Positions 3,155 to 64,000 of a DNA stretch of 64,000 nt are shown piece after piece (position 1 is the first letter of the stretch; each line of letters starts with the position of its first letter). The notes beneath the pieces were generated by a model. The model had not been told where the DNA came from. It searched no databases and was given only the letters and a program-made list of their open reading frames with translations. The DNA is from Bradyrhizobium viridifuturi (GTDB lineage Bacteria; Pseudomonadota; Alphaproteobacteria; Rhizobiales; Xanthobacteraceae): positions 62,001 to 126,000 of the forward strand of contig NZ_LGTB01000021.1 in assembly GCF_001238275.1 (NCBI RefSeq), read 5' to 3'. A program made the translations under genes and the position numbers.

Positions 3155-4150
3155 ATGGTTGATGTCGTTGAGATCGAACGCACCGAACACCGCGCCGGCG
3201 CGGCGCCGCGCAAGACCTGGCAGCGCGCCGAGGCCGAGGCGCTCTACAATCTGCCGTTCGCGGACCTGATGTTTCAGGCGCAGGGCGTCCATCGCGCCAA
3301 CTTCAATCCGAACCACGTCGAAACCGCGAGCCTGCTCAGCATCAAGACCGGCGGCTGCCCGGAAGACTGCGGTTACTGCTCCCAGAGCGCGCATTACGAT
3401 ACCGGCCTGAAAGCCACCCGCCTGATGCCCCGCGATGAGGTGGTCGCGGTCGCGCAGCGCGCCAAGGACGCCGGTGCCACACGCTTCTGCATGGCCGCGG
3501 CCTGGCGCAGTCCCAAGGACCGCGATCTCGATCAGGTCTGCGACATGGTCAGCGCGGTGAAGGGGCTCGGCATGGAGACCTGCGTCACGCTCGGCATGCT
3601 GACGCCGAAGCAGGCCGAGCGCCTCTCTGAGGCCGGGCTCGATTTCTACAACCACAATGTCGATACCTCGCCGGAATTCTACGACAAGATCATCACCACC
3701 CGCACCTTGCAGGAGCGCATCGATACGCTGGCGCATGTGCGCGACGCCGGCATCAAGGTCTGCTGCGGCGGCATCATCGGCATGGGTGAACAGGTCGAGG
3801 ACCGGCTCGGCATGCTGATGCTGCTCGCCAATCTCCCCAGCCATCCGGAAAGCGTGCCGATCAATCTGTGGAACGAGGTCAAGGGCGTGCCGGTCAACGA
3901 CACCGCGGAGCGTCCCGATCCGATCGCGCTGGTGCGGCTGGTCGCAACCGCGCGGATCATGATGCCGCAGAGCGTGGTGCGGCTGTCGGCCGGGCGGCAA
4001 TACATGACCGATGAGCTGCAGGCGATGTGCTTCCTCGCCGGCGCGAACTCGATCTTCATCGGCGATGTGCTGCTGACCACCAAGAATCCGCAGCGCGACC
4101 GCGACGCCGATTTGCTGGATCGGCTCGGCATCACCTCCCGCCTCGCCTGA
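3155..4150 (+). CDS. bioB: Biotin synthase BioB
   Basis: The protein has 331 residues, the usual length for the family. It is a radical-SAM enzyme that inserts sulfur into dethiobiotin to give biotin. The SAM [4Fe-4S] motif CxxxCxxC appears as CPEDCGYC (residues ~67-74), followed by [10 protein letters not shown]. Later family landmarks are [22 protein letters not shown] and the LSAGRQ segment near the C-terminus; the Arg of that segment ligates the auxiliary [2Fe-2S] cluster. The ATG at 3155 has AGAAGG at 3141-3146. It is the first gene of bioBFDA and lies directly behind the double BioR-like operator, so repression in the presence of biotin is expected. Confidence 0.98.
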
Positions 4151-4216
4151 TCGCAATCTTCCGCGAGCGCGCGGCCACAGTCCGCGCGTGACCAACCTTG
4201 CATCTGAGAGAGAAGC

Positions 4217-5371
4217 ATGAGCGCAATCCATGCGGCCAAGGCCGCTGATTACGCCGCGGCCTTGCACGCCCTGAGCAAGGACGATCGGCTGCGCGGCCTC
4301 AAGCCGCGCGCAGGCATCGATTTCGTCTCGAACGACTATCTGGCGCTAGCGACCGCGCCGCGCATCAAGCAGGCGGTTGCGGCCGCGCTCGAAGCCGGCA
4401 CGCCGATCGGCGCCGGCGGCTCGCGGCTCTTGCGCGGCAATTGCGAGGAGCATGAGTGGCTGGAGACCGAAGCCGCCACGTTCTTCCGTGCCGAGACTGC
4501 CTTGTTCTTCGGCGGCGGCTATGTCGCCAATTTCGCCGTGCTGACGACGCTGCCGCAGCGCGGCGATCTGCTGGTGCTCGATGCCCTGGTGCATGCGAGC
4601 ATCCATGAGGGTGCGCGGGCCGGCCGGGCGGAATTCAGGTTCAGCGCCCACAATGATCCGCAATCGGTCGAGGATACCATTCGCGGCTGGCGCGGCGAGG
4701 GCGGAACGGGCCGGGTCTGGATCGTGGTCGAGAGTGTCTACAGCATGGATGGCGACGTCGCGCCGCTCGACGATCTCGTCGTCATCGCGGATCGGCACGA
4801 CGCGTTCCTGATGGTGGACGAGGCGCATGGCACCGGTGTCTATGGCGAGCAGGGGCGCGGCCTGACGGCGCCCTATGAGGGCCGCGACAACCTCGTGATC
4901 GTTCATACCTGCGGCAAGGCGCTGGGCGCGGCGGGCGCGCTGGTCACGGCCCCGACCGTGCTGCGCGACTTCATGGTCAATCGCTGCCGCCCGTTCATCT
5001 TCGCCACCGCGCCATCGCCGCTGACCGCGGTTGCCGTGCGCGAGGCGCTGCTGATCCTGCAACAGGAGCCCCAGCATCAACAGCGTCTGGCAAACCTGGT
5101 CGCGTTCACCCATCGCGAGCTTGATCTGCGCGGCTGGCGCAGTCCGTCGCGCTCGCAGATCGTGCCCTATATCGTCGGCGACAATGCACGCGCGATGCAG
5201 CTTGCGTCCGCACTGCAGTCACGCGGCTTCGACGTCAGGGGCATCCGGCCGCCGACCGTGCCGGCGGGCACCGCGCGCCTGCGGATTGCGATCACCCTCA
5301 ATGTCGACGAGGACGACGTGCGCGCGCTGCTCGACACGCTGGTCGCGGAGACCAACGGATGGCCACAATGA
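4217..5371 (+). CDS. bioF: 8-amino-7-oxononanoate synthase BioF
   Basis: The protein has 384 residues. It is a PLP-dependent alpha-oxoamine synthase condensing a pimeloyl thioester with L-alanine to KAPA (8-amino-7-oxononanoate), the first ring-assembly step of biotin. Family motifs are [10 protein letters not shown] near the N-terminus, [11 protein letters not shown] (residues ~58-68), [13 protein letters not shown], the PLP-ring Asp in [12 protein letters not shown] (residues ~195-206), and the Schiff-base Lys in [12 protein letters not shown] (residues ~230-241). AGAGAGAAGC lies just before the ATG. It follows bioB by 66 bases and shares an ATGA stop/start overlap with bioD, which indicates translational coupling. 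Confidence 0.97.
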
Positions 5372-6000
5372 GCAGCGCGATCGTGGTGACCGGCACCGAT
5401 ACCGGAATTGGAAAGACCGTCTTCTCGGCGGGTCTCTCCAGCTTCCTCGGCGCGAACTACTGGAAGCCGGTTCAGTCGGGCCTCGACGAGGAGACCGACG
5501 CGCAACTGGTGGCTCGGCTAGGCGGCATCCCGGCCGACCGCATCGTGCCGGAACGCTACCGGCTTCGAACGCCGGCATCGCCGCATCAGGCCGCCGCGAT
5601 CGACGGCGTGCGCATCGATCCCGGCGCGCTCGATGTGCCCGCGACTTCGAACCGGCCGCTGGTGATCGAAGGCGCCGGCGGGCTGATGGTGCCGCTGAAT
5701 GACGACACGCTTTACATCGACATCTTCGAGCGATGGCGGTTGCCGGTCGTGCTCTGCGCCCGGACGGCACTTGGCACCATCAATCATTCGCTGCTGTCGG
5801 TCGAGGCGCTGCGCAAGCGCCGGATCGACATCGTCGGAGTGGCCTTCATCGGCGAGAGCAATCCCGAGAGCGAGCGCGCTATCTGCGCGTTAGGGCAGGT
5901 GCGCCGACTGGGCCGGTTGCCGCTGCTGTCGCCGCTTGCGCCGGACACGCTGCAGGCGGCATTCAGGGATTCATTCCGGCGCGAAGATTTCAATCCATGA
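5368..6000 (+). CDS. bioD: Dethiobiotin synthetase BioD
   Basis: About 210 residues. It is an ATP-dependent carboxylase that closes the ureido ring of 7,8-diaminononanoate to give dethiobiotin. The P-loop [15 protein letters not shown] starts near residue 9, the KPVQSG segment follows at ~34-39, and [11 protein letters not shown] is the family motif near residue 100. The ATG at 5368 overlaps the bioF TGA (ATGA). An in-frame ATG at 5359 would add three residues. The 3' end forms another ATGA overlap with bioA, so bioF, bioD and bioA are translated as a coupled chain. Confidence 0.95.
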
Positions 6001-55717: not shown

Positions 55718-56944
55718 CTAGCCCGCCGGGCTGCTGTCCTCGAGGATCGGGCCGAACAGCTCCCAGCGCTCGCCGTTGAACTTCATCATCTGCAGCTGCT
55801 TGTTGACGCGATAGTCGTTCGGCGTGGTGTTGCCCTTGATGCCGGGCAGCGCCATGTCGAGGTCGACGTTCTTCAGGTTGGTGGCCTGCTTCAGCACGTT
55901 CTCGCGGGTCAGCTCGTCGCCGCACTGCTTCAGCACATGCACCATCAGCTGGGCGGTGGAGTAGCCGTAGGTGTTGAAGTTCGAGTTCTTGTCGCCGTCG
56001 GGATAGTACTTGGCCATGAAGTCGAAATAGCGCTTCATGCCCGGATCGTCCTTCCACTGCGGATCGGCCGGATCCTTGCCGTAGTTGGTCGAGATCAGGC
56101 CCTTGGAGGCCTCGAGGCCGGCCGGCTGCAACACCGCGCCGACCGAGGTGGCGTTGATGTCGACGATGTGGACCGGATGCCAGCCGAGCTCGGCGATCTT
56201 CTTGATCGCCTGCGCGGCCTGCTTCGGCGTCGAGGCCGAGAAGAACAGGTCGGCGCCGGCATCCTTGATCTTGATCACCTGGGAATCGATGGTCGGGTCG
56301 GAGACCTCATAGGAGGCTTCGGCCACGATCATCTTGGCGGCCTTGTCGCCGAGGCCGGCCTTGATGCCGTTGAGATAGTCCTTGCCGAGGTCGTCGTTCT
56401 GATAGAGCACGCCGACCTTGGCATTCGGGTGCTCCTTCAGGATGTACTGGCCGTAGATGCGGCCCTCGACGAAGTAGTTCGGATTGAAGCCGAGCGTCCA
56501 GGGGAAGTTCTTCGGGTCGGTGAACTTCGAGGCGCCGGTGGCCGCGAACAGCTGCGGCACCTTCTTGGCGTTGAGATATTTCTGCACCGCGGCGTTCGAC
56601 GGCGTGCCGACGATCTGGAAGGTCAGGAGCACCTCGTCGCTCTCGACGAGCTTGCGCACCTGCTCGACCGCCTTCGGCGGCGAATAGGCGTCGTCATACT
56701 GGATCAGATTGATCTTGCGGCCGTTAATGCCGCCCTGGTCGTTGATCATCTTGAAATACGCCGCCTGGGTCTTGCCGATCGAGGCATAGGCGGAGGCCGG
56801 GCCGGAGAAGGGGACGGTTTGGCCGATCTTGATTTCGGTGTCGGTCGCGCCGGGATCGTATTTCTTCTGCGCGTAGGCCGACGTGGCAGACAACGCGATC
56901 GCGAGCGCCGTTCCCGTGACCAGGTGGAAAATCCCGTTCCTCAT
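55718..56944 (-). CDS. ABC-transporter substrate-binding protein (branched-chain amino-acid type), copy A
   Basis: The protein has 408 residues. A signal peptide (FHLVTGTALAIALSATSAYA, cleavage after AYA) precedes a type-I periplasmic binding fold: DTEIKIGQTVPFSGPASAYA, MINDQGGINGRKINLIQYDDAYSPPKAVEQVRKLVESDEV, VGVLYQNDDLGKDYLNGIKAGLGD. These match the LivK/urea/aromatic-acid binding group. No permease or ATPase gene is nearby, so it is an orphan receptor. A frame continuing upstream to 57643 is fortuitous; the ATG at 56944 has GAGGG before it and begins the signal peptide. It is a close paralogue of the next gene upstream. Confidence 0.93.
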   Translation of the reverse strand: MRNGIFHLVTGTALAIALSATSAYAQKKYDPGATDTEIKIGQTVPFSGPASAYASIGKTQAAYFKMINDQGGINGRKINLIQYDDAYSPPKAVEQVRKLVESDEVLLTFQIVGTPSNAAVQKYLNAKKVPQLFAATGASKFTDPKNFPWTLGFNPNYFVEGRIYGQYILKEHPNAKVGVLYQNDDLGKDYLNGIKAGLGDKAAKMIVAEASYEVSDPTIDSQVIKIKDAGADLFFSASTPKQAAQAIKKIAELGWHPVHIVDINATSVGAVLQPAGLEASKGLISTNYGKDPADPQWKDDPGMKRYFDFMAKYYPDGDKNSNFNTYGYSTAQLMVHVLKQCGDELTRENVLKQATNLKNVDLDMALPGIKGNTTPNDYRVNKQLQMMKFNGERWELFGPILEDSSPAG

Positions 56945-57123
56945 AATGCTGTTTCCCTCACGTGACTGATGTTGGCCGATGATCTTGTCCGCGGGTTCAA
57001 GGTCCGCGGTCGCCATCGCTGGGCCGGGATACTGGCGGAACGCTTGCTGCGACGCAAGACGAGCAATGCCGAAAAGGTGAGCGATTTCAGTCAACCAAAG
57101 TAGGGGGCACCGCAAAAAAGAGA

Positions 57124-57149
57124 CCGGCGCAGCGGGGGCGCTGCGCCGG
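57124..57149 (-). terminator. Terminator between the two binding-protein genes
   Basis: Perfect 11-bp stem CCGGCGCAGCG with a 4-base loop; the minus strand continues TCTCTTTTTTG. It should end transcription of the upstream copy (57178-58398), so the two paralogues are separate units. Confidence 0.82.
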
Positions 57150-57177
57150 CTTTTGCGGCCGGAGATAGTTACGGGCG

Positions 57178-58398
57178 CTAGCCCGCCGGTCCGGTGTCCT
57201 CGATGATCGGGCCGAACAGCTCCCAGCGCTCGCCGTTGAACTTCATCATCTGCATCTGCTTGTTGATGCGATAATCGTTCGGTCCTGTCGTGATCGACAT
57301 GCCCGGCAGCGCGAGAGACGGCACGAACTTCTTCAGGCTGGTCACCTGCTTCATCAGGTTCTCGCGGGTGAGGTCGTCGCCGCACTGCTTGAGCACCTGG
57401 ATCAAGAGCTCGGCCGTCGAGTAGCCGTAGGTGTTGACGGTGTTGAGCTTGTCGCCCTCCGGGTAATACTTGTCCATGAAGGCGAAATAGGCCTTTACGC
57501 CGGGATCGTCCTTCCACTGCGGATCGGCGGGGTCTTTGCCGTAATTGGTCGAGATGATGCCCTTGGAGATGTCGAGGCCGGCCGGCTTCAACGTCGCCGA
57601 CACCGGGCTCGCGTTGATGTCGAGGATGTGGACCGGGTGCCAATCCAGGTCGGCGATCTTGCGGATTGCCTGCGCGGCGAATTTCGGCGTCGAGGCGTCA
57701 TAGACTAGATCGACGCCGGCGGCCTTCAGCTTGACGATCTGGGAATCGACGGTCGGGTCGGTCAGCTCGTAGGACACTTCGGCCACGATCATGCTGGCGG
57801 CCTTGTCGCCGAGCCCGCTCTTCAGGCCGGTGATGTAGTCGCGGCCGAGATCGTCGTTCTGGTAGAAGATGCCGATCTTGGCGTTGGGGTGGTTGGCCAG
57901 GATGTATTTGGCGTAGATGCGGCCCTCGGACTGGTAGTTCGGGTTGAACGCGATGGTCCACGGCGCGTTCTGCGGATCGGAGAAGCGCGAGGCTCCGGTG
58001 GAGGCCAGCAGCTGCGGCACCTTCTTGGCATTCAGGTATTTCTGCACGGCGGCATTTGACGGCGTGCCGATGATCTGGAAGGTGAACAGCACCTCGTCGC
58101 CCTCGACGAGCTTGCGCACCTGCTCGACCGCCTTCGGCGGCGAATAGGCGTCGTCATACTGGATCAGGTTCAGCTTGCGGCCGTTGATGCCGCCCTGGTC
58201 GTTGATCATCTTGAGGTAGGCCGCCTGGGTCTTGCCGATGCCGGCATAGGCGGATGCCGGGCCCGAGAACGGCACGGTCTGGCCGATCTTGATCTCGGTG
58301 TCGGTTGCGCCGATGTCGTACTTCTTCTGTGCGGCGGCCGATGTAACCGACAACGCGATGGCAAGCGCTGTCGCAGCGAGCAATTGCACGCTCCTCAT
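57178..58398 (-). CDS. ABC-transporter substrate-binding protein (branched-chain amino-acid type), copy B
   Basis: The protein has 406 residues and runs gap-free or nearly so alongside copy A. Identical stretches include GATDTEIKIGQTVPFSGPAS, GGINGRK, IQYDDAYSPPKAVEQVRKLV, ISTNYGKDPADPQWKDDPG and MMKFNGERWELFGPI. The signal peptide is MRSVQLLAATALAIALSVTSAAA. Differences concentrate in signal peptide, mid-domain loops (YDASTPKFAAQAIRKIADLDW against FSASTPKQAAQAIKKIAELGW) and the 3' part, suggesting different ligands. It has its own leader and terminator. Like copy A it lacks adjacent membrane components. Confidence 0.93.
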   Translation of the reverse strand: MRSVQLLAATALAIALSVTSAAAQKKYDIGATDTEIKIGQTVPFSGPASAYAGIGKTQAAYLKMINDQGGINGRKLNLIQYDDAYSPPKAVEQVRKLVEGDEVLFTFQIIGTPSNAAVQKYLNAKKVPQLLASTGASRFSDPQNAPWTIAFNPNYQSEGRIYAKYILANHPNAKIGIFYQNDDLGRDYITGLKSGLGDKAASMIVAEVSYELTDPTVDSQIVKLKAAGVDLVYDASTPKFAAQAIRKIADLDWHPVHILDINASPVSATLKPAGLDISKGIISTNYGKDPADPQWKDDPGVKAYFAFMDKYYPEGDKLNTVNTYGYSTAELLIQVLKQCGDDLTRENLMKQVTSLKKFVPSLALPGMSITTGPNDYRINKQMQMMKFNGERWELFGPIIEDTGPAG

Positions 58399-58527
58399 GT
58401 CCGTGACCTCTCATGTTGCCGGTGATCTTGTCCGCAAGCGTTGGGCCAGCGGATGTCACCGTTGCCAGGGATGATGGAGGAAGGGCAGGGGCATTGCAAG
58501 ACGATGCGCCCTGCGCGCGATGTCGCG

Positions 58528-58890
58528 TCAGGCCAGCCACAGCAGGATCAGCGCCAGCGCCGCGGGAGCCGCCTGCACATAAAGGATGCGGCGGCTCACG
58601 GTGGCGGCGCCATAGGCGCCGGCGACGATCACGCATAGCAGGAAGAATGTCTTGATCTGGAATGCTAAGGCGGCATTGCCGTGTGCCAGGCCCCAGATCA
58701 ATCCGGCGGCGAGGAAGCCGTTATAGAGCCCCTGATTGGCGGCGAGCACGGCCGAGTCGGTTGCCTTCTCGAGCGAGTTGCGGAAGGTCTTCAGCCCGAG
58801 CGGCTTGGTCCACAGAAACATCTCGAGGATTAGGAAGTAGATGTGCAGCGCGGCCACCACCGCGACCAGAAAATTGGCAATCACAAGCAT
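58528..58890 (-). CDS. DUF1304-family membrane protein
   Basis: The protein has 120 residues and four membrane helices (IANFLVAVVAALHIYFLILEMFLW, NGFLAAGLIWGLAH, IKTFFLLCVIVAGAYGAATV, AAPAALALILLWL). The conserved ALHIYFLILEMFLW and NQGLYNGFLAAGL identify DUF1304, of unknown function. The ATG at 58890 follows GGGGGG at the minus-strand leader. A long perfect hairpin lies in its 5' leader. Confidence 0.85.
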   Translation of the reverse strand: MLVIANFLVAVVAALHIYFLILEMFLWTKPLGLKTFRNSLEKATDSAVLAANQGLYNGFLAAGLIWGLAHGNAALAFQIKTFFLLCVIVAGAYGAATVSRRILYVQAAPAALALILLWLA

Positions 58891-58905
58891 ATTCGGTCCC
58901 CCCAA

Positions 58906-58940
58906 GAGCTTCGGTTCTGATCTAATCAGAACCGAAGCTC
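58906..58940. repeat. 16-bp perfect hairpin in the DUF1304 leader, part of a dispersed repeat
   Basis: GAGCTTCGGTTCTGAT and its exact complement enclose CTA. The following bases to ~59020 (CTTGTTCTGACGCGTTTTCT, CACGCGAACCGGTGTCCAT, then GCTCGAAAACGCT) are a familiar Bradyrhizobium intergenic repeat. It separates the divergent DUF1304 and ogt genes. Confidence 0.6.
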
Positions 58941-59100
58941 AAGATCTTGTTCTGACGCGTTTTCTCCACGCGAACCGGTGTCCATCCCGCATCTAGCGCG
59001 GGATAGGCTCGCTCGAAAACGCTCCTGCCGGAATTCGGGTGGACGCTACCACGCGGGCGGTGAATTGTATGCCGAGCGACCCGTTTCCAGAGCGACGACC

Positions 59101-59625
59101 ATGGCCGACCGCAAGACCGCCCAGACCTTCAACCTCGATCGCCTCAAGACGCCGATCGGCACCGCGCTGCTGGTGACCGATGATGATGGTGTGCTGCGCG
59201 CGCTCGACTGGGACGACTACGAAGGACGCATGCTTGACCTGCTGCGGCTGCACTACGGCTCCGTGACGCTGCGGGACGGCCGCGCCCCGGCCGCGATGCG
59301 CAAGGCGCTCGGCGACTACTTCAGCGGCGATCTCGATCGGCTCGCGGATGTCGAATGGCGCGTCGCAGGCACGCCGTTCCAGCAGAAGGTCTGGCATGCG
59401 CTGCCGAAGATCCCACCAGGCACCACCATGAGTTACGGCGCGCTGGCGGCGAGGCTGAAAATGCCGAATGCGATGCGCGCGGTCGGCCACGCCAACGGCT
59501 CCAACCCGATCAGCGTGGTCGTGCCCTGTCATCGCCTGATCGGCGCCAACGGCTCGCTGGTCAAATATGGCGGCGGCCTTGAGCGCAAACGCTGGCTGCT
59601 GCGCCACGAGGGCGTGGAGGTCTAG
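59101..59625 (+). CDS. ogt: Methylated-DNA--protein-cysteine methyltransferase
   Basis: The protein has 174 residues. It repairs O6-alkylguanine by irreversible transfer of the alkyl group to a Cys. The active site VVVPCHRLIGANGSL has acceptor Cys143; FQQKVWHALPKIPPGTTMSYGALA (~93-116) is the winged HTH, and RAVGHANGSNP holds the Arg finger and Asn hinge. The N-terminal domain is the Ogt/MGMT type without an Ada domain. ATG 59101 is taken; the frame is open upstream, without family sequence. Confidence 0.95.
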   Translation: MADRKTAQTFNLDRLKTPIGTALLVTDDDGVLRALDWDDYEGRMLDLLRLHYGSVTLRDGRAPAAMRKALGDYFSGDLDRLADVEWRVAGTPFQQKVWHALPKIPPGTTMSYGALAARLKMPNAMRAVGHANGSNPISVVVPCHRLIGANGSLVKYGGGLERKRWLLRHEGVEV

Positions 59626-59652
59626 CGGGCGAATTGTCCGCCGGTGAGGCGA

Positions 59653-59769
59653 TCAGTCGAGATCCTCGCGCGGCATGTTTCGCAGATCGCGCACGATGTA
59701 GAGGAATACGATCAGCGAAGGCATCCATGCGAGGATCGCTCCTACCAGCATCGCATCGACCGTCGTCAT
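59653..59769 (-). CDS. 38-residue single-helix membrane protein
   Basis: Reads MTTVDAMLVGAILAWMPSLI followed by VFLYIVRDLRNMPREDLD: one membrane helix (residues ~7-26) and a charged C-terminal tail. The ATG at 59769 has AGGGAG five bases upstream. It lies 41 bases after the Cys-rich gene pair on the same strand, so probably in their transcript. Function unknown. Confidence 0.55.
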   Translation of the reverse strand: MTTVDAMLVGAILAWMPSLIVFLYIVRDLRNMPREDLD

Positions 59770-59810
59770 GGGATCTCCCTTGAGCGCGTCAAAACAAATG
59801 CCCCTCGCCG

Positions 59811-60002
59811 TCAGATCATTTTCTTCGATGGGCCGGAGGTTCTGGCGAAGGGATACAGCCACCTCCAATAGGCCCTGTTGCGCTCCAATTGCCGCTTGTA
59901 GATTTCGCGGCACTTCACCGAGCAAAATTGCTCGAAGTGCCAGCTGTGCCGGATCAACCCGAAGGGCCGCTTGCATCCGGGATTTCCGCAGCGGCACGTC
60001 AT
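59811..60002 (-). CDS. Small Cys/His-rich (zinc-ribbon-like) protein, 63 residues
   Basis: It begins MTCRCGNPGCKRPFGLIRHS and continues WHFEQFCSVKCREIYKRQLE, then an aromatic/basic tail (NRAYWRWLYPFARTSGPSKK). Potential metal ligands are Cys3, Cys5, Cys10, His19, His22, Cys27 and Cys31. The C-x3-C after an aromatic, followed by a Tyr/Arg helix, resembles FCS/MYM-type or treble-clef zinc fingers. Its ATG overlaps the stop of the next upstream gene (ATGA), so the two are translationally coupled. I recognise no named family. Confidence 0.62.
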   Translation of the reverse strand: MTCRCGNPGCKRPFGLIRHSWHFEQFCSVKCREIYKRQLERNRAYWRWLYPFARTSGPSKKMI

Positions 60003-60163
60003 GATGCGGCCTCGGCATTCGAACGCGCGAACCAGCGAATGAAGTTCTGCTGACCTTGGTAGAGGCAGAGGCGTCCGCAATAGCGTTCACCCGCCGGATT
60101 TCGCAAACAGATGATCTTGGGTTCTTCGCTGTCGCACTGGGCGCAGCGCGGTTCCGCACGCAT
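59999..60163 (-). CDS. Small Cys-rich (zinc-ribbon-like) protein, 54 residues
   Basis: It reads MRAEPRCAQCDSEEPKIICL, then RNPAGERYCGRLCLYQGQQN and FIRWFARSNAEAAS. Cys7, Cys10, Cys29 and Cys33 form a CxxC-x18-CxxxC array, with Cys19 between. The YCGRLC segment parallels FCSVKC of its partner. A very strong ribosome site (GGAGGGAGG) lies 6 bases before the ATG at 60163. The stop overlaps the partner's ATG. Probably a zinc-binding DNA, RNA or protein contact module. Confidence 0.65.
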   Translation of the reverse strand: MRAEPRCAQCDSEEPKIICLRNPAGERYCGRLCLYQGQQNFIRWFARSNAEAAS

Positions 60164-60343
60164 GGCGACCTCCCTCCGAGGAATTGCCATTTGCCATTCA
60201 AAATGTCTGAGGTGGTCCTTGCCGCCGGTCTTCTCGAAGAACGACGGTGCGAAATCTCGCGCCACCATCGTCCCCGCACAATCTGTCCAGATGTTTGCCG
60301 GCATCATCCTTGCGTATACCGGTCCGATCAGCCTGATTTGAAC

Positions 60344-60733
60344 TCAATCGCCCGTCGCGGCGCCGCGCTGGCCGAGCGCGGTATCGAGGCATTTGATCAG
60401 GACGTCGCCGTCGAAGGGCTTGATCAGAAAGCAGATCGCTCCCGCCTTCAGGGCCCGGGCGCGATCGTTTTCGACGGAGAAGGCTGTGATGAAAATGAAC
60501 GGAAGGTGGCGTCCGTTGGCAATCAGGTGACTCTGCAGGTCGAGCCCGCTCATCGCCGGCATCCTGACATCCGTGATCACGCACGATGTGTCATTCAGGC
60601 GGGGCGAGTGCAGGAATTCCTCGGCCGACGCGTAGGTCTCGACCGCATAGCCCAGCGACCTGACGAGATTGTGGGTCGCGGTGCGAACCGAGACGTCATC
60701 GTCGATGATTGATATCACTGGCGGATTGGACAA
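60344..60733 (-). CDS. Single-domain response regulator (FixJ-receiver-like)
   Basis: The protein has 129 residues, a receiver domain only. The acidic pair is in ISIIDDDVSVR, the phospho-Asp in SCVITDVRMPAMSGLDLQ (~54), Thr in FIFITAF and Lys in FLIKPFDGDVL. It lacks an output domain, so it would act as a phosphate sink, a kinase modulator or a partner-binding switch. It lies 3' of the FixJ-type regulator on the same strand, behind its own 27-bp promoter-like motif that overlaps that gene's stop codon. Confidence 0.92.
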   Translation of the reverse strand: MSNPPVISIIDDDVSVRTATHNLVRSLGYAVETYASAEEFLHSPRLNDTSCVITDVRMPAMSGLDLQSHLIANGRHLPFIFITAFSVENDRARALKAGAICFLIKPFDGDVLIKCLDTALGQRGAATGD

Positions 60734-60805
60734 AGAGGTCTTCCCGGAGGCGGTCGGTCAGGGCGCGGTCTGTGCGATGCTGCGGGCGCACAGTGCGTCG
60801 CCAAT

Positions 60806-60832
60806 CGGGGTCGGAGAATCATACTTAGGTTT
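60806..60832 (-). promoter_or_regulatory. 27-bp motif, copy 1, upstream of the single-domain receiver
   Basis: On the minus strand it opens AAACCTAAGTATG, then ATTCTCCGACCCCG. It matches the copy at 63453-63479 in 22 of 27 positions, including the first 13 without change. It covers the stop codon of the FixJ-type gene and ends 73 bases before the receiver start. A promoter/activator site is inferred, possibly for the adjacent FixJ-type regulator. Confidence 0.6.
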
Positions 60833-61499
60833 GCGGCCCGCCGGATGCCTGTCCGATCCCGAGAATCTCGGCCATCCTGACCAGATCGGGCAGCGACTTC
60901 GCTGTCATTTTCCGCATAATCTGGCCGCGGTGTATCTTCACCGTGATCTCGGCCACGCCGATTTCGGCGGCGACCTGCTTGTTCATCAGTCCGGCCGTGA
61001 CGAGTGTCATCACCTGGCGCTCGCGCGGGGTCAGGGTCGCGAAGGCGGCCCGCAGGTTTGCAAGAACCCTGGCCTCATCGCGACGATTCCTGTCGCGCTC
61101 GATCGCTGTCGTGACCGCATCCAGCATGTCCTGATCGCGGAACGGCTTGGTAAGGAAGTCGACCGCTCCGGCCTTCATGGCCCTGACCGTCATGGGGATA
61201 TCGCCATGGCCGGTCATGAAGATGATCGGAATATGAATGCCGGCCTTCGTCAGCTCTGCCTGAAAGTCGAGGCCGCTGAGCCGGGGCAGCCGGATGTCCA
61301 GGATCAGGCAGCTCGGGACATCCACCGGCTTGTGCTGCAGAAATTCGTGAGCCGACCCGAACGCTGCAGTGCGCAGGCCGACGGACCGGAACAGATTGCT
61401 CAGCGCGTCCCGCACCGAGGCGTCGTCGTCGATGACGAAGACGATCGGATCTTCGGCGTTTGCCCGCGTGGCAGGCGATGCCGTGCGCCCGGTCACCAT
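60825..61499 (-). CDS. FixJ/NarL-type response regulator (receiver plus LuxR HTH)
   Basis: The protein has 224 residues. The receiver (~18-135) has VFVIDDDASVRDAL, phospho-Asp in SCLILDIRLPRLSGLDFQ, FMTGHGDIPMTVRAMKAGAVDFLTKPFRD. The LuxR-type HTH (~155-215) reads LTPRERQVMTLVTAGLMNKQVAAEIGVAEITVKIHRGQIMRKM. This is the FixJ/NodW subgroup. The ATG at 61499 lies 7 bases inside the kinase 3' end, so kinase and regulator are a coupled pair. The frame continues upstream, antisense-like and without family sequence. Confidence 0.94.
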   Translation of the reverse strand: MVTGRTASPATRANAEDPIVFVIDDDASVRDALSNLFRSVGLRTAAFGSAHEFLQHKPVDVPSCLILDIRLPRLSGLDFQAELTKAGIHIPIIFMTGHGDIPMTVRAMKAGAVDFLTKPFRDQDMLDAVTTAIERDRNRRDEARVLANLRAAFATLTPRERQVMTLVTAGLMNKQVAAEIGVAEITVKIHRGQIMRKMTAKSLPDLVRMAEILGIGQASGGPQT

Positions 61500-63247
61500 G
61501 CATGCTCCTCTTGGCGCAGTGGCAGGGTGAACTGGAGTGTCGCGCCGGGGCCGGTATGCTCGACCAGGGACAGGCGGCCTCGATGGGCTTCGACGATCGA
61601 GCGGCAGATCGACAGGCCCATTCCCATGCCGCTGGCCTTGGTGGTGTAGAAGGCGTCGAACAGCCGGTCGGCACTCGCGCTCGCAACCCCGACGCCGCAA
61701 TCGGTGACCGTGACCAGGATCTGCTCGGCATCGTCGTCATGGCGGGTCCGGATCACGAGCTGCCGCGGCCGGTCCGTGACCGGCTGCATCGCCTCGATGC
61801 CGTTGAGGACCAGGTTGAGGATGACCTGCTGCAACTGGATACGGTCGGCAACCACAGGCGGGAGCGCGGGAGTGAGGTCGAGCCGCAGCGATATCAGGTG
61901 GCTCTGCACTTCATGCTGCACCAGGCCGATCACCTCGTTGATGACCTCATTGATGTCGAGCGGCGCCTTCTGATCGGTGGTCTTGTTCACCAGCGCGCGG
62001 ACGCGCTGGATGACCTCGCCCGCCCGGTTGCCGTCGCTGATGATCGAGCTCACCGCGCCGCGCACCTCATTCAGATCGGGAGCCGCCCGGTCGAGCCAGC
62101 GCAGGCAGGCCGCGGCGTTGGTGACCACGGCGGCAAGCGGCTGGTTCACTTCATGGGCGATCGATGCGGCTAGCTCGCCGAGCGCCGTCACGCGCGTGAC
62201 ATGCGCGAGGTTGGTCTGTGCCTCATGCAGTTGCGCCTCGGCCAGCTTGCGGGCGGTCACATCGGTGACCGCTCCGACGAATTCGGTGTCGCCCGAAACG
62301 TTCGTCACCGCGTGCGCCCTGGCGTGGACATATTTGATCGCTCCGTCGGGCATCAGCAATCGGTAGCCGTGCTCGAAGTCCTTGCGATCGAGCGAGGCAC
62401 GGTCGATGGTCCGTTGTACGCGGTCGCGGTCATCAGGATGGACGCGCTGAAGCACCGTACCGTGCTTGATGGATGGAACTCGGTCGAACCCGAATATCCG
62501 GAAGGTTTCTTCCGACCAGATGATCTCGCCGCTGGCGACATGCCAGCCGAAGCTGCCGGTATGGCTCAGTCGCTGGGCCTCGGTCAGGTACATTTCACTC
62601 TGCTGCAGCGCATTCTCGGCATGCTTGCGCTCGGTGACATCCTCGCAGGCGATCAGGACGATCAGCTGATCGTCGAGCCGCCGCACCGCCTTGGCATTTT
62701 CGCGGACCCAGAGCCTTGAACCGTCCTCGCGGATCTTGCGGATTTCCCAGCTGTGGGTCAGGCCGATGTTGTCGAGGCACGCCGCGACATTGCGCTGAAC
62801 CATCGGGTGGTCTTCGGCGTCAAACACCCGCAGCACGGATTGTCCGAGCAATTCGTCGACGGTGTAGCCGAGTTGTGCCGCGCCGAACGTGTTGACCGAC
62901 AGCACGAGGCCTGTTGCGTCGACCATGAAGTACATGACGGGGTTATGCTCGAACACTTCCTTCCATTGCGCTTCGCTGTTGCGTTGCGCCTCGATCGCGC
63001 GCTCTTCGCCGCTGGCCCGGCCGCGCAATATGGCCTCCATCTGCCTGTGGGTGCGGCCCACCAGGTGCATCATCAGCAGTGTAGCGATCAGCGAGGCGAT
63101 GAGCAGCGCGAGGGCAACCAGGTGGGCGGACGCTGTGGGCTGCGGACCAAGCACCAGCCCGATGCAGGTTGCGGCCAAGGCCAGCACCATGCCGCCGAGC
63201 AGCCATTGTTCGGCTGACCAGGACTTCGTGGTCGGATTCGGCATCAT
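61493..63247 (-). CDS. Membrane PAS-sensor histidine kinase
   Basis: About 584 residues. Two N-terminal membrane helices (LLGGMVLALAATCIGLVLG; LVALALLIASLIATLLMMHLVG; ~15-65) are followed by two PAS domains (~95-215: VFEHNPVMYFMVDATGLVLSVN; ~225-345: TGSFGWHVASGEIIWSEETFRIFG with PAC). HisKA has ASIAHEVNQPLAAVVTNAAA (phospho-His ~368). The ATPase domain has NLVLNGIEAMQ, VTDCGVGV and GMGMGLSICRSIVEAHRG. The architecture and HEVNQPL box match the FixL/NodV/NtrB-like kinases paired with FixJ-type regulators. No haem-PAS His is evident. Start is uncertain among 63262, 63247 and 63244. Confidence 0.92.
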   Translation of the reverse strand: MMPNPTTKSWSAEQWLLGGMVLALAATCIGLVLGPQPTASAHLVALALLIASLIATLLMMHLVGRTHRQMEAILRGRASGEERAIEAQRNSEAQWKEVFEHNPVMYFMVDATGLVLSVNTFGAAQLGYTVDELLGQSVLRVFDAEDHPMVQRNVAACLDNIGLTHSWEIRKIREDGSRLWVRENAKAVRRLDDQLIVLIACEDVTERKHAENALQQSEMYLTEAQRLSHTGSFGWHVASGEIIWSEETFRIFGFDRVPSIKHGTVLQRVHPDDRDRVQRTIDRASLDRKDFEHGYRLLMPDGAIKYVHARAHAVTNVSGDTEFVGAVTDVTARKLAEAQLHEAQTNLAHVTRVTALGELAASIAHEVNQPLAAVVTNAAACLRWLDRAAPDLNEVRGAVSSIISDGNRAGEVIQRVRALVNKTTDQKAPLDINEVINEVIGLVQHEVQSHLISLRLDLTPALPPVVADRIQLQQVILNLVLNGIEAMQPVTDRPRQLVIRTRHDDDAEQILVTVTDCGVGVASASADRLFDAFYTTKASGMGMGLSICRSIVEAHRGRLSLVEHTGPGATLQFTLPLRQEEHAW

Positions 63248-63607
63248 CGGCAGCACCAGCACTTGGCCGTCCGGGCCGCGCTGCGTCGCTAGGTGACCGC
63301 TATCATCAGCGGCGACAACGTCGCCCTCCTAACAGACTTGATATTAGCAGCTTTACCGGCGTCGGGACGAAATCATGCGGGCCTTGGCGATCCACGCATG
63401 AGATCGCGCAGAACGCGAGGTGCGCAGGCGCACTCAGGTCCAGGTTGCGGATAAACCTAAGTATGGTCCTCCCCACCCGAATGTAACGGCCGGATCAACC
63501 TCCGTTCAATGGCCCGTTTCTTCGCGGTGACTACGCTTATTCGGTAACTCGATGACAGTAGAGCTCTCCGGGCTTCGGCAATCGCCAATCAGAGACGGGA
63601 GATTGAA
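63248..63607. other. Divergent intergenic region of the signalling locus
   Basis: 360 bases between the kinase and the small orphan gene. It contains motif copy 2 at 63453-63479. I see no other gene, RNA or strong hairpin. The last 15 bases hold a GGGAG ribosome site for the orphan gene. Confidence 0.5.
63453..63479 (+). promoter_or_regulatory. 27-bp motif, copy 2, upstream of the orphan small gene
   Basis: Opens AAACCTAAGTATG, then GTCCTCCCCACCCG, oriented toward the plus-strand gene at 63608, ~128 bases away. It nearly matches the minus-strand copy at 60806-60832. Both copies precede a small gene of the same locus in the same relative orientation. Confidence 0.6.
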
Positions 63608-63874
63608 ATGTCCAACAGGCGCCTGCATTTGATCCTCTGCTCCGAGGATGCCGGACACGAGGCGGCGCGTCAGAGGCCCGCGCGCAGCTTCCAGCCGACC
63701 GTTATCGATGGCGGCAGGCAAGCCGCGAGCACTTCGTCGGATCAGTCCTGGATCGACCTGCTCGACGTCTTCGATTTGGGCGTCGTGATCTGTCAAGCGA
63801 GTTACCTGGCCTTGCTGGGCGCGAGCTTGGCAGCGCTGCAGGCACAGGCAGGCGTGCCGGATCCAGGATCCTAG
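63608..63874 (+). CDS. Small orphan protein of the signalling locus, 88 residues
   Basis: It begins MSNRRLHLILCSEDAGHEAA and ends in ASLAALQAQAGVPDPGS. A polar first half is followed by an amphipathic/hydrophobic stretch (SWIDLLDVFDLGVVICQASYLALLGASLAAL, ~47-77), possibly a membrane-associated or dimerising helix. No family recognised. A good GGGAG lies before the ATG and the 27-bp motif lies upstream, so it is likely expressed in parallel with the single-domain receiver. Confidence 0.55.
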   Translation: MSNRRLHLILCSEDAGHEAARQRPARSFQPTVIDGGRQAASTSSDQSWIDLLDVFDLGVVICQASYLALLGASLAALQAQAGVPDPGS

Positions 63875-64000
63875 GCCGCCCCAGGAGTTAGCCCCGGCAG
63901 GCTGCCGGACCGGAGCGATGGCTGCTCACGCCAGGGTCGCGCAAGACGGGTCCGATAACAGCCTCCGAGAGAGCCCGGAATCCAGTCCCCTCTAGCCCTG

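Follow-up and report, generated by a model that had tools for sequence, protein, structure and literature searches.

A StyR-like two-component system with its own lone receiver and four microproteins in Bradyrhizobium: a candidate self-contained regulon

NodV-NodW and NwsA-NwsB of Bradyrhizobium each pair a PAS kinase with a FixJ-family regulator, NodW and NwsB being regulators of the flavonoid response. The system described here lies in a 64,000-nucleotide stretch of the Bradyrhizobium viridifuturi contig NZ_LGTB01000021.1 (positions 62,001 to 126,000; the window), at window positions 59,653 to 63,874, and joins a kinase-regulator pair to a lone receiver (REC) and four small proteins, CysB54, CysA63, TM38, and P88. 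It resembles the Nod systems in genus and broad family, and it adds the microproteins. A role of NodVW and NwsAB in nod gene induction is described in the available parts of PMC5793154 and PMC4070704. StyR, TodT, TutB, and TmoT may recognise ATAAAC-N4-GTTTAT, with Lys175, Val176, and His179 named as contact residues (PMC5874301, available part), and the activating site of StyR is placed near -40 (PMC2442086, available part). A precedent for the lone receiver is FixT, a receiver-only protein that is induced by its own two-component system and inhibits the kinase; according to the available part of the source, its authors never saw it phosphorylated (PMC7078487).

Taking gene order, conservation, and operator format together, we propose, with a probability of about 0.55, that the locus encodes a StyR-type two-component system that would induce its own lone receiver, probably for feedback, as well as the microproteins, thus forming a self-contained regulon. 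All genes named by the first-pass annotation proved to be open frames (Table 1), and Pfam confirmed the domains of the coupled kinase and regulator and of the lone receiver. The minus strand carries the kinase, regulator, lone REC, CysB54, CysA63, and TM38 in that order, and P88 is divergent on the plus strand.

This arrangement is confirmed as a real syntenic unit. A first protein search placed P88 in 12 of 60 genomes, our own included; in the regions around the P88 matches, nine loci besides our own held the full set in the same order (TM38 being split over two frames in one, L030) and four further loci a P88 match alone. Profile searches of 195 genus genomes found CysB in 44, P88 in 48, and both in 42, where they always share a contig at a distance of 3353–4083 bp; of the pair, two genomes hold CysB only and six P88 only. 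The co-occurrence gives a Fisher p of about 1e-33, a value that ignores kinship, treats the two draws of 195 as the same genomes, and uses counts from the listed match places. The synteny search that the first-pass annotation had proposed as a check came out partly in its favour: absence or scattering of the small genes in close relatives, which it had taken as a sign against the module, was found in part: most of the genus genomes lack CysB and P88, and the two are not scattered in any of the 42 that hold both.

A CysB scan of named genomes retrieved 36 loci, all titled Bradyrhizobium except one Tardiphaga metagenome-assembled genome, which carries the set with no P88 match in the fetched stretch; P88 is present in 33 of the 36. 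Identical sequences were counted once for the sites and genes of these named loci, for the stop-codon offsets, and for the regulator tree. Across the loci that hold the kinase gene, the kinase is 55–93% identical (best piece). The TM38 frame is interrupted or shifted in L225 and L246, and the CysB54 and CysA63 genes overlap by 4 nucleotides here as in 31 of 31 relatives counted, which suggests translational coupling. Median dN/dS (nonsynonymous to synonymous rate ratio; 29–33 sequences each) was 0.19 for CysB, 0.24 for CysA, 0.30 for TM38, and 0.37 for P88, and 0.20 for the lone REC. With medians of 0.19–0.37, the small open reading frames (ORFs) are under purifying selection and behave as proteins.

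We refer to loci with the microprotein set as type A and to paralogous systems whose fetched stretch gave no match to CysB, TM38, or P88 as type B. In a quick tree of 99 rows, made without bootstrap, 38 type-A regulators fall on one side of a single branch (Shimodaira-Hasegawa-like approximate likelihood ratio test, SH-aLRT, 96). A draw of 149 genomes from the family, seven of them from our genus, gave matches to CysB in 5 genomes, one of them marginal, to P88 in 3, and to a CysA-like gene in 17; one genome of another genus (G223) has the order regulator-motif-receiver-CysB, with its CysA-like match interrupted by a stop codon. The microprotein set is nearly confined to Bradyrhizobium and is held by a minority of the genus.

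The motif that had been described as near-identical upstream of two genes stands as AAACCTAAGTATG before both REC and P88. A 15-mer search of the window with up to three mismatches returned these two copies only, with 0.04 expected from shuffles, and in the 8.8-Mb genome the exact sequence occurs three times, namely ahead of this REC, ahead of P88, and on another contig, where it precedes the REC of a paralogous set. When one mismatch was allowed in the 13-mer, the whole genome gave three matches, every one of them exact, and the reversed pattern also gave three, none exact; it is therefore the exactness and the placement that stand out, and not the number of matches within one mismatch. Exact AAACCTARGTATG was found at 92 sites in 55 of 79 genus genomes, compared with 3 for the reversed control. 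Seventy-six of these sites are followed within 300 bp by a REC match (71 also have a regulator directly upstream), nine stand before P88, and seven are elsewhere; REC here means the best tblastn match, with ORF length unchecked per site.

In the named loci, which were fetched by CysB and not by the motif, sites were taken within one mismatch, and all 35 that hold the regulator-REC spacer carry exact AAACCTAAGTATG there. In these loci, as at 71 of the 92 exact sites, the REC gene lies behind the regulator with an operator-like site. Free of the mismatch limit, AAAC-N4-GTATG was counted in 32 of 33 kinase-P88 intergenic regions, its N4 taking nine forms, and the remaining region has ATACCACGGTATG; shuffled regions held the site in 11 of 6600 cases (here, as for the REC-CysB gaps and plasmid receivers below, shuffling preserved base composition only). 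Downstream of the P88 motif, the conserved box GATCAACCTCCGTTCAATGG is the sole exact copy in its own genome, where one other copy has three mismatches. Many of the exact motif sites belong to type-B systems, which share the regulator-motif-receiver order. The motif belongs to a circuit common at many paralogous loci of the genus, and only the microprotein set is special. The first-pass label "undescribed" holds within the open-licence literature searched. A search of that literature for the motif letters yielded, among the papers listed, nothing on bacterial regulation by the motif, judging from titles and abstract starts, and one for StyR-box letters or NodW operators yielded only unrelated papers.

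The regulator had been called FixJ-type, a description that holds at the level of the family, while a narrower StyR-type assignment fits better. In a phmmer search of the PDB, the best solved match was 1yio (E 5.6e-61), above FixJ 5xso (E 5.7e-43), a ranking in keeping with a StyR-like regulator made of a receiver and a NarL/FixJ helix-turn-helix; the curated NCBIfam cut-offs were not reached by the regulator (210.2 bits; FixJ, 255) or the kinase (230 bits; FixL, 850). We take 1yio to be StyR, its record reading "response regulatory protein". The putative operator resembles the known StyR/TodT operator class in format, since AAAC and the four-base spacer agree (shared format AAAC-N4-GT-T). By our own reading of the numbering, contact residue Lys175 is kept and Val176 is replaced by Ile. 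If the StyR spacing near -40 is applied to the motif positions, transcription would begin about 53 bases ahead of the REC start codon and about 109 ahead of that of P88. Whereas StyR and TodT control catabolic operons according to the available parts of the cited papers, the sites here precede a lone receiver and P88; the kinase, with one transmitter and no internal receiver, also differs from TodS-like kinases (PMC5874301, available part).

The likeness to FixL-FixJ-FixT of Caulobacter and Sinorhizobium (PMC7078487, available part) lies in a receiver that is induced by its own system and would feed back on the kinase, an arrangement that we propose here from sequence. REC keeps D11, D12, D55, T83, and K105, which are invariant in the 21 sequences chosen for alignment. 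Its cysteines (C51, C101, and C115) do not form the four-cysteine motif C53/C56/C59/C64 of Caulobacter FixT, it retains the acceptor Asp, and, unlike FixL and FixJ, the kinase and regulator fall below the curated cut-offs.

To look beyond the genus, 25 plasmid matches of the regulator were listed and 22 fetched (H2, H8, and H22 were left out), in a first batch of 10 loci and an extension of 12 more. Receivers with a frame of more than 150 amino acids past the match start were excluded, among them a Methylobacterium receiver that has AAACCTGTGTATG. AAAC-N4-GTATG, with at most one mismatch within 250 bases upstream, was present at 7 of 15 plasmid lone receivers near StyR-like regulators (4/7 in the first batch and 3/8 in the second), with 0.34 expected from shuffles. 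Outside Bradyrhizobium, it was present at 5 of 12 (Microvirga three times, Phyllobacterium, and Caballeronia). The predicted circuit core also occurs outside Bradyrhizobium.

In the mechanism that we favour, the PAS kinase would phosphorylate the StyR-like regulator, as is known for the family, and the phosphorylated regulator, judging from operator format and placement, would bind AAAC-N4-GTATG and activate two targets: the lone REC transcript, probably reading on through CysB54, CysA63, and TM38, and P88. The kinase-regulator pair may in addition be autoregulated from the same divergent region. Once induced, the lone receiver would act back on the kinase, either as a FixT-like inhibitor or as a competing phosphate acceptor. 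We regard CysB54 and CysA63 as probable small metal-binding partners, TM38 as a putative membrane microprotein close to the kinase, and P88 as a candidate adaptor that is largely disordered apart from a single helix; in the weakest step of the scheme, the microproteins might jointly modulate or pass on the output of this one system. Control of the whole set by one regulator, as the first-pass annotation supposed, gains strength from the operator format and from the placement of the motif across the genus and stays an inference, with CysB-CysA-TM38 lacking a strong operator of their own.

A broader version of this scheme is offered only tentatively: StyR/NodW-type regulators of alpha- and betaproteobacteria might carry an A[AT]AC-N4-GTATG operator that leads to a kinase-resetting lone receiver, to which one Bradyrhizobium lineage might have added four microproteins serving this pair, namely two coupled Cys-rich proteins, a membrane peptide, and a disordered adaptor. 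The findings as a whole offer a candidate operator for a set of Bradyrhizobium FixJ-family regulators, with a candidate built-in feedback receiver beside each. If the operator held for NodW and NwsB, the genes that they control directly could be identified in genome sequences. In addition, four unannotated microproteins of 38–88 residues become candidates with a predicted partner system.

Several observations weigh against the self-contained regulon. The right half of the motif agrees only partially with the StyR operator (GTATG and GTTTA share three of five bases: G, T, and the fourth), the AT that precedes AAAC in that operator is present at the window's P88 site and not conserved among sites, and contact residue His179 is replaced by Gly, 1yio reading KVHRH and our regulator KIHRG in our own numbering. 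No sigma-70-like promoter was found in 59600–63900 (0.8 expected by chance). Eight of the 15 plasmid lone RECs lack an operator in their upstream 250 bases even when one mismatch is allowed (Sinorhizobium medicae, S. meliloti GR4, R. sullae, Bosea, Rhizobium T136, C. insecticola, Paraburkholderia PGU19, and Bradyrhizobium CB82), and the reversed pattern occurs at 2 of the 15. Among 249 genomes of the order, the exact motif was found 5 times outside the genus against 10 for the reversed control; the 1.5-kb flanks of these exact copies showed no regulator-receiver order, that of L272 having weak regulator and kinase matches and no receiver, so the exact motif was rejected as a marker beyond the genus. 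In 17 type-B loci (L066:1258-1377, L112:8637, and 15 others), a distant CysA-like gene, 35–45% identical and with the FGLIR motif, lies across the kinase from the regulator side; 16 of the 17 lack an operator, and the operator was consequently rejected as a general feature of this gene.

The gap of 164–302 bp between REC and CysB is a further difficulty, as with such a gap the operon may be discontinuous. No terminator-like site was found between the two genes, and two terminator hits fall inside REC. In 32 of 34 REC-CysB gaps the best position weight matrix (PWM) match stands at the same place, ATCCTTGCGTAT in the window, where 29 of 200 shuffles score as high; this weak site is clear in some lineages only, L237 and L238 having 0 of 200. 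CysB-CysA-TM38 would thus depend on read-through from REC or on the weak site.

Other explanations of the locus were weighed against the self-contained regulon. REC keeps its phosphorylation residues and is linked to the microproteins, not to a catabolic or transport operon, and FixT, by contrast, was not seen phosphorylated (PMC7078487, available part); the receiver and the small proteins might then constitute an effector branch, a second output of CheY or DivK adaptor type with the microproteins as its route to another target. We consider this doubtful, for the order is the same in type-B sets, whose fetched stretches hold no CysB, TM38, or P88 match, and the job of REC thus seems independent of the microproteins. 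It is unlikely that common descent alone holds the block together while another regulator reads the motif and the small proteins have unrelated jobs. Such a history would suit the ogt, DUF1304, and LivK genes, which many named loci likewise keep next to the set, and the P88 relative that occurs without the set at L029, behind a Peptidase_C92 gene. However, the block is kept without those flanks in the fetched stretches of L237, L238, L246, L250, and L251 (the last without P88), the motif stands behind paralogous regulators elsewhere, and even at L029 a motif copy lies ahead of the putative operon to which the P88 gene belongs.

The position of the motif raises the question of whether it is a conserved coding or RNA sequence around the regulator stop codon and no operator at all. 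It overlaps that codon at offset -5 in most sites of either type (type A, 33 of 41; type B, 42 of 56) and at +1 in a single additional type-B site (5 of the 56 have no regulator from which to measure), so that REC-side conservation could partly reflect coding constraint. This is unlikely to be the whole cause, since in 8 of the 41 type-A sites at least 35 bases separate the motif start from the stop codon and the P88 copy is not inside any gene; 8 of the 56 type-B sites likewise start at least 7 bases past the stop-codon start, and the P88 sites stand in the kinase-P88 spacer with N4 free. An Rfam scan of 58400–64000 gave no match, and a known Rfam RNA was rejected on that ground. A purely coding or RNA origin of the motif is therefore highly improbable.

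Table 1. Features of the two-component locus and its operator-like sites (window positions; the regulator start codon was picked by reading the sequence).
Feature	Positions	Strand	Remarks
Sensor histidine kinase	61493-63262	-	Pfam: two PAS stretches, HisKA, HATPase_c
Response regulator	60825-61499	-	Pfam: receiver and GerE/LuxR helix-turn-helix; StyR-like; overlaps kinase stop
Lone receiver (REC)	60344-60733	-	TTG start; Pfam: receiver
CysB54, 54 aa, CxxC...YCGxxC	59999-60163	-	
CysA63, 63 aa, C-x4-C...FCSxxC and FGL[IV]R motif	59811-60002	-	Alignments
TM38, 38 aa, one hydrophobic segment (read by eye)	59653-59769	-	Present in syntenic loci
P88, 88-aa orphan protein, divergent	63608-63874	+	
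Operator-like motif AAACCTAAGTATG before lone REC	60820-60832	-	Overlaps regulator stop codon
Operator-like motif AAACCTAAGTATG in kinase-P88 intergenic region	63453-63465	+	
Weak operator-like site ATCCTTGCGTAT in REC-CysB gap, tentative	60306-60317	+	PWM match
Conserved box GATCAACCTCCGTTCAATGG, 20 bases, downstream of P88 motif	63493-63512	+	Found in P88 loci

CysB54 and CysA63 have two cysteine pairs each. CysB54 has no Pfam or NCBIfam match at E 1, and its profile weakly matches TOX4 chain 9ci7_B (E 0.005). CysA63 weakly matches the treble-clef family PF09889 (DUF2116; E 0.003, 17.9 bits, cut-off 26.8), and its profile compared with RLP24 gives E 0.14. The likeness to treble-clef zinc proteins such as DUF2116 and RLP24 consists of these CysA63 profile matches and the paired cysteine motifs; all matches are weak, and the CysA63 model is of low confidence (mean predicted local distance difference test score, pLDDT, 65) and without a significant fold match, the only Foldseek match having E 2.5. 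In the AlphaFold model of P88 (mean pLDDT 69.6), a low-confidence N-terminus that contains conserved short motifs is followed by one helix at 47–81, mostly above 90. The kinase N-terminus consists of hydrophobic segments when read by eye.

At L029:7911-9349, a P88 relative lies outside the set behind a Peptidase_C92 (YaeF/YiiX-like) gene, and AAACCTAGGTATG together with a P88-type box (one mismatch) stands upstream of both genes. The pair may be a second member of the regulon, located away from the module. L063, L068, L079, L085, and L097 hold motif copies where the regulator-motif-receiver order is missing; those in L068 and L079 stand ahead of a distant kinase-receiver-regulator set. On the S. 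medicae plasmid, a perfect palindrome, ATACCTAGGTAT, follows the lone receiver (L259:4243-4254) and sits inside a frame, 4126–5733, that runs into an epoxide-hydrolase-like gene.

With regard to symbiosis genes, no named nod gene lies 20 kb or less from the regulator in a plasmid relative (Bradyrhizobium sp. 184), and our own genome has no NodA match on contigs C10 or C21. Its NodA matches (L266-L268) are whole on C5, split over two overlapping stretches on C89 for a second one, and marginal on C2. Two tandem genes for LivK-like substrate-binding proteins adjoin the module in the window (55718–58398), and two LivK matches follow in many of the named loci.

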